Translations under genes and position numbers: made by a program | The notes under the pieces: model-generated | The model's input: only the letters and a program-made list of their open reading frames with translations | Database searches by the model: none | Told to the model about the DNA's origin: nothing | Assembly: GCA_017473265.1 (NCBI GenBank) | Contig: JAFULQ010000001.1 | Location: 1-64,000, forward strand | Length of the DNA: 64,000 nucleotides | Reading direction: 5' to 3' | Source of the DNA: Erysipelotrichaceae bacterium | GTDB lineage: Bacteria; Bacillota_I; Bacilli_A; Erysipelotrichales; Erysipelotrichaceae | Shown here: piece by piece, positions 3,286 to 58,647 of the stretch | How positions within the stretch are numbered: position 1 is the first letter of the stretch | Layout of the letters: each line of letters opens with the position of its first letter

Positions 3286-3523
3286 CATAAAAATTCAATT
3301 AGATAATTTTGAAAGTATTCATGATTTTCATTTATGGATAAAAGAACAATGTCAATTTCCAGATTATTATGGCTGTAATTTGGATGCATTGTATGATTGT
3401 TTAACGGAAAATAATCAATTTGAATTTCAAATTTTACCTTCTGAAAAGTATGAAGAATATCAAGCTTGTGTAGTTGATGCTATCATCGATGCAGGATGTA
3501 AAGTTCAATTTATATTTGAATAA
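3278..3523 (+). CDS. Barstar-like ribonuclease inhibitor
   Basis: An 81-aa cytosolic protein that should bind and block the RNase encoded just upstream. The signature PDYYGCNLDALYDCLT (28-43) is the barstar inhibitory helix; Asp36 and Asp40 correspond to barstar Asp35 and Asp39, which fill the barnase active site. The start at ATG 3278 lies inside the RNase gene and has GAGGAA 7 nt upstream, giving an 8-nt overlap. Barstar Trp38 is Tyr39 here. The pair forms an immunity module for a secreted nuclease. Confidence 0.93.
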   Translation: MNSIKIQLDNFESIHDFHLWIKEQCQFPDYYGCNLDALYDCLTENNQFEFQILPSEKYEEYQACVVDAIIDAGCKVQFIFE

Positions 3524-3534
3524 AGGAGTATTGT

Positions 3535-4248
3535 ATGAAACGTTTACAAACAATATGTAATATAATTGCTGTTTTATATTTAATTTTCCATTTATGTTAT
3601 GCTGGATTTATGTTTACGCAATCTTTATTTTATGCCATGATTTGGTTAGCAATTTTAGTAGTTGAAGTGTTGATTGTTGTATTTGGTTTGAAGAAGGCTA
3701 AGTTTATTGTATGTATTTTTACTTTATTCTTATTGGCGCAATCTTGTTTATCGGCTTTCATTTATGTAAAAGGTTTTGATTTGCAAACAAAGAATGCGGA
3801 TTATGTTGTGGTTTTAGGTTATGCTTTAGAAGATAATCAAATGACGGAAACATTGAAGTTGCGTTTGGATAGAACGTATGAATATGCAATAGATAATCCA
3901 AATGCGAATATTGTGTTGTGTGGTGGTATTACAGGAAGTAATACTGTATCTGAAGCAAAAGTTATGTATGATTATTTAGTAACCAAGGGTATTGTTAGTA
4001 CTCGAATGAGATTGGAAGATACATCTACAGATACGATTGAGAATATTCAAAATTGTAAGTCGTATATTGATACTAAAAGTAAGGTTGTGGTTCTTTCTAG
4101 TAATTATCATGTATACCGTGCTAGTAAAATCTGTGAAAAAGCTGGATTTGAGGTTCATACTTTAGGAAGTAAAGCTCCAATTTTATTATTACCAAATCAA
4201 TTTTTACATGAAAAACTTGGTTTTATCAAAATGATGATTTTTATGTAA
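3535..4248 (+). CDS. YdcF/SanA-like (DUF218) membrane protein
   Basis: A 237-aa protein with three or four N-terminal membrane helices (about residues 7-80) followed by a DUF218 domain. The domain starts at ADYVVVLGYAL and includes LCGGITG, a SEAKVMYDYLV helix and LSSNYHVYRA, all typical of the YdcF/SanA/ElyC fold, which is linked to envelope functions in other bacteria. AGGAG lies about 9 nt before the ATG. It is 11 nt behind the barstar gene and may be co-transcribed. The exact role is unknown. Confidence 0.82.
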   Translation: MKRLQTICNIIAVLYLIFHLCYAGFMFTQSLFYAMIWLAILVVEVLIVVFGLKKAKFIVCIFTLFLLAQSCLSAFIYVKGFDLQTKNADYVVVLGYALEDNQMTETLKLRLDRTYEYAIDNPNANIVLCGGITGSNTVSEAKVMYDYLVTKGIVSTRMRLEDTSTDTIENIQNCKSYIDTKSKVVVLSSNYHVYRASKICEKAGFEVHTLGSKAPILLLPNQFLHEKLGFIKMMIFM

Positions 4249-40736: not shown

Positions 40737-41969
40737 ATGCAAGTAGCGATTATTAGAAAAGAAATGACACCAAATACACCAATGTATATGTCAGGTCATG
40801 CAATACGTACAGAAAAACATAAGGGTGTTTTAGATCCATTGTATTGTACGGTTTTATTGATTGAAAGTGATGAAACGGTATGTTTTGTGACACATGATGT
40901 TGTTATGGTTGATGAGGCATACACCATTGATTTGCGTAAAAATATTGCAGAGGCTTTACATATTCCATTTGAACATGTATTTGTGTCTTTTTTACATAAC
41001 CATTCTGGACCAGAATTTACAGAATTAAATGTATTTACGAAGACAAGAGAATTTGCATCAGACTTAGAGTATGTTCAATGGGTAAAGGAAATGAGTGTTG
41101 ATTTAGCTCTACAAGCTAAAGAACAACTACAACCAGTTTGTGCAAGTTTTGGAAAAGTTACGATTGATGGTTATTATGGAAATCGTAATGGTATAGATAT
41201 TCCATGTGATAAAGAAATAACGATAGTAAAGTTTGAAAATAGTCAACAAACGATTGCGTCTTTTATGAATTTTCCATGTCATGGAACCGTATTAGGATCT
41301 CAAAATTTATTACTCAGTGCAGATTTGCCAGGGGCAATACGTGCACAATTAGAAAAAGCATATGATACAACGATGTGTGTGTTTATTGGTGCTGCAGGTG
41401 ATATGGGTAATCGCCAATATCGTCAAGAAAGTTCACCTAAAGAATTGGATAGAACAAGTGCGGGTATTGTTAAACAAATTCTAGAGAAAATGGAATATCA
41501 ACCAATATCTTTAGAAGGGTTACAAGTATATCCATATGAATATGTTATTGATTATGTAAGAAGTATGGAAGATACCAAAGCTGAAATTATGAAAATTGAA
41601 CAGGAATTAGCTAGTGATATTTCATATAGTCGTAGACAATTGCTTACAAGTGGTTTAGCGATACAAAAAGGACATTTACTAGAAGATGCGCACGTTGTTG
41701 TGTCTTTAAAAGGTGCCATCATTGATACCGAAGATGCAATGTTTGTAACTATTCCTGCGGAATTGTTTAATCGTTTTGGTTTAGAAATGAAACAAGCAGT
41801 GAATAAACAAGTCTTTGTATTTGGTTATACAAATTATTCCATTGGCTATATGGTAGAAGAAAGCGAATGGGGGAAAAATTACGAAAGTATGGCGTCTAGT
41901 ATTCAAAAAGGTGATCCTGAAAAGTATACAAAGTTTATTGTAGAAAGAATGCGAGAAATACTTGGATAA
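40737..41969 (+). CDS. Neutral/alkaline ceramidase-like hydrolase
   Basis: A 410-aa protein related to the neutral/alkaline non-lysosomal ceramidase N-terminal domain. Typical pieces are SGHAIRTEKHKGVLDPLY near residue 18, FVSFLHNHSGPE with likely metal-binding His residues, NFPCHGTVLGS and GAAGDMGNRQY. There is no signal peptide, so it acts inside the cell, and it is shorter than full ceramidases. True substrates of such bacterial homologues are mostly unknown. Its end overlaps the convergent prepilin peptidase gene by 35 nt. Confidence 0.82.
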   Translation: MQVAIIRKEMTPNTPMYMSGHAIRTEKHKGVLDPLYCTVLLIESDETVCFVTHDVVMVDEAYTIDLRKNIAEALHIPFEHVFVSFLHNHSGPEFTELNVFTKTREFASDLEYVQWVKEMSVDLALQAKEQLQPVCASFGKVTIDGYYGNRNGIDIPCDKEITIVKFENSQQTIASFMNFPCHGTVLGSQNLLLSADLPGAIRAQLEKAYDTTMCVFIGAAGDMGNRQYRQESSPKELDRTSAGIVKQILEKMEYQPISLEGLQVYPYEYVIDYVRSMEDTKAEIMKIEQELASDISYSRRQLLTSGLAIQKGHLLEDAHVVVSLKGAIIDTEDAMFVTIPAELFNRFGLEMKQAVNKQVFVFGYTNYSIGYMVEESEWGKNYESMASSIQKGDPEKYTKFIVERMREILG

Positions 41970-42801: not shown

Positions 42802-42828
42802 GTGATAAACTTTTAGTAGGTGATAAAA

Positions 42829-43227
42829 ATGAAAGTTCATGTATTACGTTTAGTTGAAGGAAATGATTTACGAGATGGCATTGAACAATATTGTAAGGAT
42901 CATAATATTGGCAGTGCCTGTGTTTTGACTTGTGTAGGGTGTGTAAAAGAGTTGAAGCTGCGTATGGCTGGTGGAAAGACTTTTTTGCATCAAATAAAGG
43001 ATTATGAAATTGTATCTTTGGTAGGTACAATTAGTGTGGATGGTGCGCATTTGCATTTTTCTGGAAGTGATATTGAGGGGACTACGATTGGTGGTCATTT
43101 AACAAGTGGTACCATTGTAAATACAACAGCTGAAATTGTTCTTATGGAATTGGATGAATATCATTTAACAAGAGAAATGGATGAGAATACTGGATACAAG
43201 GAATTGGTGATTCATAAATGCAATTAG
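42829..43227 (+). CDS. PPC (DUF296)-domain protein
   Basis: A 132-aa protein that is essentially one PPC domain, as in plant AT-hook proteins and bacterial stand-alone homologues that form trimers. The core LVGTISVDGAHLHFSGSD and TIGGHLTSGTIVNTTAEI is clear near residues 60-100. The start at ATG 42829 has AGGTGA 5 nt upstream. It overlaps the following acetyltransferase gene by 10 nt. A DNA-binding role has been proposed for the family but is not shown here. Confidence 0.85.
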   Translation: MKVHVLRLVEGNDLRDGIEQYCKDHNIGSACVLTCVGCVKELKLRMAGGKTFLHQIKDYEIVSLVGTISVDGAHLHFSGSDIEGTTIGGHLTSGTIVNTTAEIVLMELDEYHLTREMDENTGYKELVIHKCN

Positions 43228-43730
43228 AAACAACACGTTTACTTGTTCGTGAAGGTAGAAAAGAAGATATTGCAGGTATTATGCAATTTCGTAATAGTGA
43301 ATTTGTATTGCAGTACAATTGTATGGATATGGTCAATGAAGAGTATTGTATAAAAGAGATATTGAATCCATATACTTGGGTAATTGAATTAAAAGAAGAT
43401 TATAGAGTGATTGGTGTGATAGATGTTCATGAAGATAGTGTTCGTTATCGTATAGCATCGAAAGAATTGTCGTATTACTTGAATGAAGTGTATGCTAAAA
43501 AAGGATATATGAAAGAGGCACTAGAGGTATTAATATCTTATTTATTTACAGAATTACAACTAGAATGTATAAGTGCAAGAGCATTTACAGCCAATGAAGC
43601 TTCACATCATTTACTGTTGTCCTTAGGCTTTCATCAAGATGGAGTAATACCAAAATGTGTAAAAGCATATCGTGATGTAATTTATGATGATGGAATATAT
43701 TCTCTTTTAAAGAAAGAGTGGAGGAAGTAG
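43218..43730 (+). CDS. GNAT-family N-acetyltransferase
   Basis: A 170-aa acetyltransferase of the RimJ/RimL-like group. It opens QLETTRLLVREGRKEDIAG, and the acetyl-CoA region is degenerate: the usual Gly-rich loop reads NEVYAKKGYMKEAL near residue 92. The start lies within the PPC gene, so the two are coupled. Substrate unknown. It is followed after 1 nt by a gene with a second GNAT domain. Confidence 0.85.
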   Translation: MQLETTRLLVREGRKEDIAGIMQFRNSEFVLQYNCMDMVNEEYCIKEILNPYTWVIELKEDYRVIGVIDVHEDSVRYRIASKELSYYLNEVYAKKGYMKEALEVLISYLFTELQLECISARAFTANEASHHLLLSLGFHQDGVIPKCVKAYRDVIYDDGIYSLLKKEWRK

Positions 43731-43731
43731 T

Positions 43732-44706
43732 ATGTTACATATTTATAATGTAGGGCCTTTGTTTACGGAGGCAGAAAAGAAACAAAGACAGTATGAAGGT
43801 AGAAAGATTAGTGAATTGTTGAAACATAATTTTATTGATTTTGAGTTATCAAATCCTATTGATATGCCTACAAGTAATCAATTAGATGTTACAAGTAGTG
43901 AGATTTATCAAGCAGATTATGAACGTTTATCGAAAGCGGATGTTGTTTTCTTTGATTTGTCAAATGAAGATAGTGGTTCTTGTGTGGCTTTAGGAATCAT
44001 TATGGAAAAGAAACTACAAGGTAAAAAGATTTCTGTATATCCAATTATTCATGATATTCGTTTATCTCGTAATGGGCAAAGTGGATTGGAATCTAGTTGT
44101 GGTTTTAATTCGATGGTTGTTGGTATTTTAAAGGGTAATGGTATTGCAATTTATTCTTCCTTTGAAGAGGCGTATATGCAATTTATGCAAGATTATCATT
44201 TGTATGATTTGCGTTTGGAAGAAATTCAAAATGTGGATTTAGAAGCAAGTTATAAATTATTTATGTCTTTTGATAAGGATGAAAATGGTTTTATGAATGA
44301 TGCGTATGGTTTGTCTTTTGAAGAGTATAAATACTTTGTGAGAAATTGTTATCGTGAATCTAGAGGTGTAGGATTGCCTAGTTGGAAGGTTTCTCATACG
44401 ATTTATATATTAATGCAAGGTGAAAAGGCTGTTGGTATTTTTAAAGTGCGTCATTATTTGAATGATGTATTAAAAAATGGTTCTGGTCATATTGGATTTG
44501 GTATTGGTAAAGAGTATCGCAATCAAGGATATGCGACTAGAGGATTACAGTTAGCTGTTCAAGAGCTTAAAAAGATGATGTTAGAAGATGAAATTTATAT
44601 GTCTGTGAACAAGAATAATCTTGCAAGTATTAAAGTACAAGAAAACAATGGTGCATATATTCATCATGAAGATGAGGATCATTATTATACTCGTATAAAA
44701 AGATAG
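43732..44706 (+). CDS. Fusion of nucleoside 2-deoxyribosyltransferase-like domain and GNAT acetyltransferase
   Basis: A 324-aa two-domain protein. Residues 1-150 match the nucleoside deoxyribosyltransferase fold: IYNVGPLFTEAEKKQR at the start and ADVVFFDLSNEDSGSCVALG (69-88). In active enzymes the last motif reads DSGTxxExG with a catalytic Glu; here Ala86 takes that place. Residues 160-324 are a GNAT domain with an acetyl-CoA loop IGKEYRNQGYATRGLQLA near 258-275. The N-domain may thus bind a nucleotide without cleaving it. It lies 1 nt after another acetyltransferase gene. Confidence 0.8.
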   Translation: MLHIYNVGPLFTEAEKKQRQYEGRKISELLKHNFIDFELSNPIDMPTSNQLDVTSSEIYQADYERLSKADVVFFDLSNEDSGSCVALGIIMEKKLQGKKISVYPIIHDIRLSRNGQSGLESSCGFNSMVVGILKGNGIAIYSSFEEAYMQFMQDYHLYDLRLEEIQNVDLEASYKLFMSFDKDENGFMNDAYGLSFEEYKYFVRNCYRESRGVGLPSWKVSHTIYILMQGEKAVGIFKVRHYLNDVLKNGSGHIGFGIGKEYRNQGYATRGLQLAVQELKKMMLEDEIYMSVNKNNLASIKVQENNGAYIHHEDEDHYYTRIKR

Positions 44707-46185: not shown

Positions 46186-46713
46186 ATGATTTATTTGATT
46201 GCAGGGGCTTCGCATACGGGTAAAACAAGATTGGCTCAAGAGTTGTTGGATGTTTATCATTTTCCTTATTTATCGATTGATCATCTAAAAATGGGATTGA
46301 TTCGTAGTGGTAATACTACTTTAACGCCAGAAGATGATGAATTGTTAACAAGCTATTTGTGGCCGATAGTTAGAGAAATGATAAAAACAGCTATTGAAAA
46401 TAATCAAAATTTAATTGTTGAAGGATGCTATATTCCTTTTGATTGGAAGAAAGATTTTACTGAAGAATATTTAGCACACATTGCACATTGTTGGTTAGTA
46501 TTTAGTGAAAAGTATATTCGTGCGCATTATAACGATATTTTAAATTATGGGAACGTCATTGAACAACGTATGGAAAATGAATATCCTTTAGAACAAATGG
46601 TAGTAGAGAATAATTATAATTTACAGATGTGTAAGAAATATCAGTTGCAGTATTATTTGTTTGATGATGAATATGTTATAGAAGATGTTATAGAATTGTT
46701 TGATGAAAATTAA
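46186..46713 (+). CDS. P-loop kinase-like protein
   Basis: A 175-aa protein with an N-terminal Walker A loop, GASHTGKT (residues 7-14), and strand LIVEGCYIP as a likely Walker B region. The size and layout resemble small nucleotide or sugar kinases of the AAA_33/2-phosphoglycerate kinase-like type. The substrate is unknown. It follows the phosphatase gene by 3 nt and ends at a strong bidirectional terminator. Confidence 0.75.
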   Translation: MIYLIAGASHTGKTRLAQELLDVYHFPYLSIDHLKMGLIRSGNTTLTPEDDELLTSYLWPIVREMIKTAIENNQNLIVEGCYIPFDWKKDFTEEYLAHIAHCWLVFSEKYIRAHYNDILNYGNVIEQRMENEYPLEQMVVENNYNLQMCKKYQLQYYLFDDEYVIEDVIELFDEN

Positions 46714-57480: not shown

Positions 57481-58020
57481 ATGATTGAAACAGAACGTCT
57501 ATATTTACGAAAATGGCAAATGTCAGATGAAGAAGCAGTGTATGATTTGTCCAAAGAGCCTGAAATTGGTTATAACTGTGGGTGGAGACCGCACAAAGAT
57601 GTGGCAGAAAGTCGATTTGTCTTAGAATATATTCTTATTAGTAAAAATAATTATGCGATAGTAGAAAAAGAAACCGATCGTGTAGTTGGTAGTTTTTCAT
57701 TTATTCCACTTGGAGATAGTCCGTTAGTGTGTGATGAAGATGAAATTGAGATTGGTTTTTGGATGGGAAAACCGTATTGGGGAAAAGGATATACAACAGA
57801 AGTTTGTAAGCGTATGATGCAATGTGCCTTTGAAGAAAAGGGCATAAACAAGATTTGGATTCAACATAATATCAATAATCTTCCATCAAAACGTGTACAA
57901 GAAAAGTGTGGTTTTGTCTATCATCATACCATTGATCGTAAATATTATTTGGTTTTGGATGAATATCGTACCAATATTGTAAATTATATAACCAAAGAAA
58001 TGTGGAATGAAAGAAAATAA
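57481..58020 (+). CDS. GNAT acetyltransferase, RimJ/RimL type, paralogue 1
   Basis: A 179-aa acetyltransferase that begins MIETERLYLRKWQMSDEEA. The acetyl-CoA loop is GFWMGKPYWGKGYTTE near residue 98, of the (R/Q)xxGxG type with Trp. It shares long identical stretches with the next gene, including CGW-PHKD, IGFW-GKPYWGKGY and CGFVYHH, so the two arose by duplication. ATG 57481 has AGGTGG about 8 nt upstream. Targets may be ribosomal proteins or small amines. Confidence 0.88.
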   Translation: MIETERLYLRKWQMSDEEAVYDLSKEPEIGYNCGWRPHKDVAESRFVLEYILISKNNYAIVEKETDRVVGSFSFIPLGDSPLVCDEDEIEIGFWMGKPYWGKGYTTEVCKRMMQCAFEEKGINKIWIQHNINNLPSKRVQEKCGFVYHHTIDRKYYLVLDEYRTNIVNYITKEMWNERK

Positions 58021-58107: not shown

Positions 58108-58647
58108 ATGATAGAAACACAACGTTTATATTTGCGAACATATCAAACTACCGATGTAGAAGTTTTGTATGAACTTTGTAAAGATCCTCATGTAGGTCCT
58201 GATTGTGGTTGGATGCCACATAAAGATATAGAGGAATCAAAGTTTGTATTAGAGAATATTTTAATCAATGATTGGACTTGGGCAATTGTTGAGAGAGATA
58301 CGAATAAACTAGTGGGTAATATTTCATTAATGAGACAAAATGATAGTCATTTAGTCATTGATGATACGAGTGCTGAAATTGGTTTTTGGTTAGGTAAACC
58401 ATATTGGGGTAAAGGGTATATGCCAGAAGCGTGTTTGGCATTAATGCAATATGCATTTGAAGACATGGGACTTAAAACGCTTTGGATTCAACATCATGAA
58501 CATAACCAAAAGTCAGCTCGTGTACAAGCAAAGTGTGGTTTTGTTTATCATCATAAGGAAGATAATAAGTATTATCCATTATTGGATGTCTATCGAAATA
58601 ATATAGTGAATTATATGACGAAAGAGATGTGGGAAAGATGCAAGTAA
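58108..58647 (+). CDS. GNAT acetyltransferase, RimJ/RimL type, paralogue 2
   Basis: A 179-aa acetyltransferase of the same length as its neighbour, beginning MIETQRLYLRTYQTTDVEV. Acetyl-CoA loop GFWLGKPYWGKGYMPEA near residue 95. The start at ATG 58108 has AGGTGA about 6 nt upstream. It has a separate promoter and overlaps the following ABC ATPase gene by 10 nt, so unlike paralogue 1 it is made with that transporter. Confidence 0.88.
   Translation: MIETQRLYLRTYQTTDVEVLYELCKDPHVGPDCGWMPHKDIEESKFVLENILINDWTWAIVERDTNKLVGNISLMRQNDSHLVIDDTSAEIGFWLGKPYWGKGYMPEACLALMQYAFEDMGLKTLWIQHHEHNQKSARVQAKCGFVYHHKEDNKYYPLLDVYRNNIVNYMTKEMWERCK

Follow-up and report, generated by a model that had tools for sequence, protein, structure and literature searches.

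Introduction

Nucleoside 2'-deoxyribosyltransferases (NDTs; PF05014), among them CtNDT and the solved enzyme 7m5h, have a fold and a set of Tyr, Asp and Asn pocket residues in common with DNPH1, MilB and the fused protein described here. The NDTs keep a catalytic glutamate (E88 in CtNDT and E104 in DNPH1, where the accessible part of PMC10603095 gives the triad as Y24, D80 and E104), whereas the fused protein has an alanine in its place and carries a GNAT acetyltransferase domain in addition. In the available text on CtNDT (PMC10913048), the E88A variant is inactive and the E88Q variant is almost 50-fold reduced, with a weak residual activity in which, the authors suggest, D62 may stand in for the glutamate. 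The excerpted account of MilB (PMC4081090) reports that E103A is inactive, yet was crystallized with hmCMP at an r.m.s.d. of 0.223 Å to the free enzyme. Both variants have, at the equivalent position, the change seen at Ala86 of the fused protein, but they were engineered, whereas Ala86 is natural and conserved.

Small-molecule domains are also found fused to GNATs. The ligand-regulated examples given in the consulted portion of PMC5861322 are the cAMP-binding Rv0998/MSMEG_5458 and the ACT-domain protein AAPatA; the small-molecule domain is N-terminal in the cAMP type, and the arrangement resembles that of the fused protein. As far as that source extends, these are actinobacterial protein acetyltransferases on which the ligand has an effect, whereas ligand binding by the fused protein is putative; they show that such an arrangement can work. 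The cAMP-binding and ACT sensor domains belong to other families than NDT. The fold, the NDT family and the GNAT family are all known; the conserved loss of the nucleophile together with the NDT–GNAT fusion is what is new, and none of the papers listed by searches of an open-licence library describes such a fusion.

Gene organization and domain structure

The window analysed here is a 64,000-nucleotide stretch from an Erysipelotrichaceae bacterium (contig JAFULQ010000001.1, assembly GCA_017473265.1). The initial annotation had read one of its genes as an NDT-like domain fused to a GNAT with an acetyl-CoA loop, and both Pfam and the alignment agree (Table 1). The NDT half matches Nuc_deoxyrib_tr (PF05014) over residues 4–92 with 28.8 bits against a cutoff of 28.8, and the GNAT half matches Acetyltransf_3 (PF13302) over residues 160–308 with 36.8 bits against a cutoff of 25.4. 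The codon for Ala86 occupies positions 43987–43989. The acetyl-CoA loop of GNATs has the consensus R/Q-x-x-G-x-G/A, which R263-NQG-YA268 of the fused protein fits; in the alignment Arg263, Gly266, Tyr267 and Ala268 are invariant in all five fused proteins. The two genes upstream, those for the PPC/PCC protein (PF03479, 103.7 bits) and the second GNAT (63.3 bits), overlap by 10 bases, a single base separates the stop codon of the latter from the ATG of the fusion, and GGAGG lies just 5' of this ATG.

Table 1. Features of the fused gene and its upstream neighbours in the window
Feature	Position	Strand	Basis
Fused gene, Glu-less NDT domain and GNAT domain, 324 aa	43732..44706	+	ORF call, Pfam, homologs
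NDT-like domain, residues 1–158	43732..44205	+	Pfam, profile alignment, model match to solved NDTs
Motif D80-S-G-S-C-V-A86-L-G88, Ala at nucleophile position	43969..43995	+	Family alignment
GNAT domain, residues 160–322, small core family member	44209..44697	+	Pfam, fold search, family scan
Acetyl-CoA loop R263-N-Q-G-Y-A268	44518..44535	+	Alignment
Second GNAT (Acetyltransf_3), coupled upstream in window only	43218..43730	+	Pfam, neighbourhoods
PPC/PCC-domain protein, adjoins fusion in G000 and G002 only	42820..43227	+	Pfam, neighbourhoods

Predicted structures

The list returned by a fold search with the whole protein was filled by the GNAT half, and the NDT half was therefore modelled alone. 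Both models are of moderate confidence (mean pLDDT 79.7 and 78.4, with residues 109–123 below 50) and are used here for the fold rather than for pocket geometry. The best matches of the NDT-half model are to NDTs: it matches 7m5h with a Z score of 15.0 (r.m.s.d. 4.3, 142 residues aligned) and 7o62 with a Z score of 13.7 (r.m.s.d. 3.0, 130 aligned), and its matches include the structures of CtNDT E88A and MilB E103A. TIR domains also appear in this list, with Z scores of 11–12, so the family assignment depends on the sequence profile and could not have been made from the fold by itself. The GNAT-half model shares the fold of the RimL, SpeG and MccE types at about 14–18% identity, the matches being RimL (1s7l; Z 17.2, 156 aligned, r.m.s.d. 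2.5), SpeG (8fv0; Z 16.6) and MccE (3r96; Z 16.2).

The nucleophile position and the surrounding pocket

The proposal that Ala86 replaces the nucleophilic glutamate is borne out by two alignments. In the family alignment the Ala86 column is Glu in all 16 aligned Glu-bearing relatives and in all five more distant NDTs, and profile alignment to the solved NDT 7m5h places Ala86 at the nucleophile column as well. The alignment also bears on whether a glutamate from elsewhere fills the site: no Glu replaces Glu86 in the sequence. All five fused homologs read DSGSCVALG, with most of the pocket invariant, which indicates that the loss of Glu is inherited and is not an error.

Tyr5, Asp62, Asp80, Asp108 and Asn126 are present in all 14 members of the Glu-less clade described below and in all 16 aligned Glu-bearing relatives; judged by motif position, we read Tyr5, Asp62 and Asn126 as the probable counterparts of Y7, D62 and N118 in CtNDT. 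Position 65 is His in each of the 16 Glu-bearing relatives and Arg, Tyr or Phe in the Glu-less clade, in which position 128 is likewise changed, so that the pocket may hold another ligand. Glu79 occurs throughout the Glu-less clade (14/14) and in one of the 16 close Glu-bearing relatives; its claim to be a migrated carboxylate is weak, because Glu-bearing classical NDTs have it too (5/5). Four of the 14 clade members, the YaaA-linked branch, have Cys86.

In the loci of this branch (L047, L048, L051 and L062) the Cys-bearing NDT relative, at about positions 1495–1971 in each, has a 4-base overlap with a gene for the peroxide stress protein YaaA. YaaA was assigned by Pfam in L047 and by similarity to the window's YaaA in the other three, and the gene next to it is one that we take, from its sequence, to be ArsC-like. 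This Cys86- and YaaA-bearing branch of the Glu-less NDTs is possibly redox-linked.

The NDT half is clearly under purifying selection. The comparison of the window genome (G000) with G002 gives the NDT half a dN of 0.15 and a dS of 1.18, and the GNAT half a dN of 0.30 and a dS of 1.46; most other pairs are at or near synonymous saturation. Among 10 fused pairs, the NDT dN is lower than the GNAT dN in eight, equal in one and higher in one.

Distribution and phylogeny

The initial annotation had suggested looking for the same fusion in other genomes. Among 272 genomes of the family, the full NDT–GNAT fusion is present in five from two genera, namely G000 and G002, which belong to the same genus, and the Traorella genomes G281, G283 and G284; this recurrence is more than chance. 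A search of genome contigs with the single protein gave no match; with the fused-alignment profile it gave five loci, in the same genomes as G002, G284, G281, G283 and G253.

Close NDT relatives, taken as those scoring at least 145 bits (n = 36, among 47 places in 37 of the 272 genomes), were all read: 21 have the glutamate (one, in G280, is broken) and 15 lack it. The window genome has a separate Glu-bearing paralog, reading DAGTYVELG, on another contig, and a Glu-bearing paralog accompanies a Glu-less copy in G000, G002, G281, G283, G282 and G253, which suggests that the original reaction is covered elsewhere.

In a maximum-likelihood NDT tree of 38 rows (33 from the family and five classical NDTs), a single clade with support of 99/98 contains 14 of the 15 Glu-less rows. 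Standalone Glu-less copies with the same motif are found at L066 (G253) and L067 (G282). The latter and the fused clade are sister groups (support 94/93 for the pair, 84/88 for the fused clade), which indicates that the loss of Glu preceded the fusion; in G282 the two halves are separate genes on different contigs, the NDT at L067 and the GNAT at L073. The G253 copy is nested inside the fused clade (97/94, with 88/49 at the nearest fork), and from this placement the GNAT was probably lost secondarily and the fusion undone. On the GNAT side, all five fused halves group with unfused GNATs in one 12-row clade (100/100), within which G284 has no firm placement. A single fusion event is likely from these trees, if not proved.

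The fifteenth Glu-less row lies outside the main clade and sits in tandem with a Glu-bearing gene in G285 (L072; 2863–3369 Glu-bearing, 3383–3716 reading DSGSCVALG and cut by the contig end). Its loss of Glu is an independent event, and the same motif arose in this second copy by gene conversion or by convergence.

Fusion partners of the GNAT domain

The core GNAT family comprises 17 matches that score 128 bits or more in 395 genomes of the class, the next match scoring 108.7. Nine of the 17 are in frames longer than 260 aa, with PNP_UDP (five), DUF402 (two) and NDT (two) as partners. In other Bacilli the PNP fusions are at L096, L098, L099, L101 and L116 and the DUF402 fusions at L088 and L091, and within the Erysipelotrichaceae family there are fusions to ASCH (three; L059, L154 and L155), HAD_2 (two; L054 and L055) and another GNAT (four; L150–L153). 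According to the available part of PMC6972931, the E. coli ASCH protein YqfB hydrolyses N4-acetylcytidine.

The other GNAT of the window served as a control in the same 395 genomes and gave six long frames among 91 matches. The comparison with 9/17 has a Fisher p value of 2e-5, which is overstated since the nine represent few independent events; the core family is nevertheless unusually fusion-prone. Among the wider matches of the outer family, five of 94 are long, and the four scanned (without L149) have NUDIX (two), Zeta/AAA (one) or no recognised partner (one). All six control partners were read: TadA-like deaminase (two), GNAT (two), methyltransferase (one) and none recognised (one). The deaminase fusions come from two genomes (L142, 681–1697; L145, 843–1790), and their GNAT is of the RimJ type. 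Nucleotide-related partners are only suggestive of nucleoside-type GNAT substrates, and their value as proof is weakened because the control GNATs share some of them.

Functional interpretation

By analogy with the engineered variants, the NDT half is most likely a nucleoside- or nucleotide-binding pseudoenzyme. Both CtNDT E88A and MilB E103A lack activity in the accounts available, and the MilB variant can still bind hmCMP; the Ala86 domain therefore resembles a substrate trap. In this reading, an ancestor of the NDT half exchanged the glycosyl nucleophile, Glu, for Ala86 before the fusion and retained Tyr5, Asp62, Asp80, Asp108 and Asn126 to hold a nucleoside or nucleotide. We tentatively suggest, at somewhat short of an even chance, that the NDT half takes up a nucleoside-type ligand that it can no longer cleave, and that it either offers this ligand to the GNAT for acetylation or adjusts the acetyltransferase according to whether the pocket is occupied. 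The comparisons show the substitution, its conservation, the order of events in the tree, the purifying selection and the two folds; from these we infer that transferase activity is gone, that a ligand is bound and that there is any link to acetylation at all. The initial annotation had suggested that the domain may be a nucleotide or nucleoside sensor that controls or directs acetylation. A binding-only domain is a reasonable part of that proposal, given that Glu is gone, the pocket is invariant and the laboratory Glu-to-Ala mutants are inactive, but the results do not support the further step, an evolution of the domain for control of this GNAT: unfused Glu-less copies exist (L066 and L067), the loss of Glu came before the fusion, and neither upstream neighbour is a stable partner.

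The two halves may instead be independent small-molecule enzymes or binding proteins joined without functional coupling, the fusion securing only their co-expression. We consider this quite possible, if on balance improbable: both halves exist as separate genes, the core GNAT family is joined to unrelated PNP, DUF402, ASCH, HAD and second GNAT domains, and the neighbourhoods of the fused genes differ, but the fusion has been kept in five of six clade members and in two genera despite these rearranged surroundings. The wide fusion of GNATs in general counts against a specific coupling, and a fusion so rare (5/272), and apparently undone in G253, indicates that NDT–GNAT coupling is not essential. 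It is rather unlikely, in our view, that the Glu-less domain is still an enzyme whose chemistry has changed to use Glu79, Asp62 or, in the YaaA-linked branch, Cys86. The distribution of Glu79 in the clade and its close relatives, the four Cys86 members, the recurrence of DSGSCVALG in the G285 tandem copy and the weak activity of CtNDT E88Q with its possible D62 substitute (PMC10913048, in the part available) would fit such a change, whereas the presence of Glu79 in the Glu-bearing classical NDTs and the inactivity of CtNDT E88A and MilB E103A in the consulted portions of PMC10913048 and PMC4081090 do not. That the NDT half is a decaying remnant, as its lost nucleophile and a Pfam score merely at the cutoff might imply, is already disfavoured and highly improbable in view of the strong purifying selection, with NDT dN below GNAT dN in most pairs, and the invariant pocket residues of the Glu-less clade.

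Returning to the pseudoenzyme reading, its broadest form, in which the clade is a nucleoside or nucleotide receptor and here either hands its ligand over to the GNAT or gates this enzyme, whose family has been joined time and again to nucleoside and nucleotide enzymes, is speculative and as a whole improbable. If true, it would point to a route of nucleoside acetylation or nucleoside sensing in gut Erysipelotrichaceae that has so far gone unrecognised. Ala86 is the Glu-to-Ala change that crystallographers use for trapping substrates in this superfamily, here fixed naturally beside Glu-bearing paralogs. Should the NDT half bind a nucleoside, it would be a ready receptor for fishing out the ligand and would give a first clue to what this fusion-prone and still uncharacterised GNAT family acts on.

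Genomic context

We considered a mobile or phage origin and rejected it after searches of viral contigs, phages and plasmids. The fused-alignment profile found none in viral contigs, and tblastn (E up to 1e-5) returned five phage and 15 plasmid records, none covering 80% of the query; all five phage records and the 10 plasmid records listed of the 15 match the GNAT half. The best phage match is a GNAT of 169 aa without a fusion partner, on a Listeria phage contig (L186). PADLOC assigned the fusion to no family, and an anti-phage system was likewise set aside.

The initial annotation had also described the PPC and second GNAT genes as coupled upstream. Both are present in the window, but neither is a stable partner across the fused genomes: PPC adjoins the fusion in two of five (both of genus g1) and the second GNAT in one, G002 having PPC but no second GNAT at that place, which rules out a conserved operon with the two. 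The three Traorella fusions follow an ABC-permease gene in surroundings unlike those of the window genus, and the gene 3' of them is, from the sequences, presumably fucosidase-like or PadR-like. The fusion persists across two genera with differing neighbourhoods.

Elsewhere in the window, 40737–41969 has similarity to the neutral ceramidase N-terminal region (PF04734, 45.6 bits against a cutoff of 32.1), and 46186–46713 encodes a small P-loop protein with a sub-threshold Zeta_toxin match (16.8 bits against a cutoff of 22.3). Two adjoining GNAT ORFs (57742–57951 and 58351–58578) have weak similarity to the fused GNAT.
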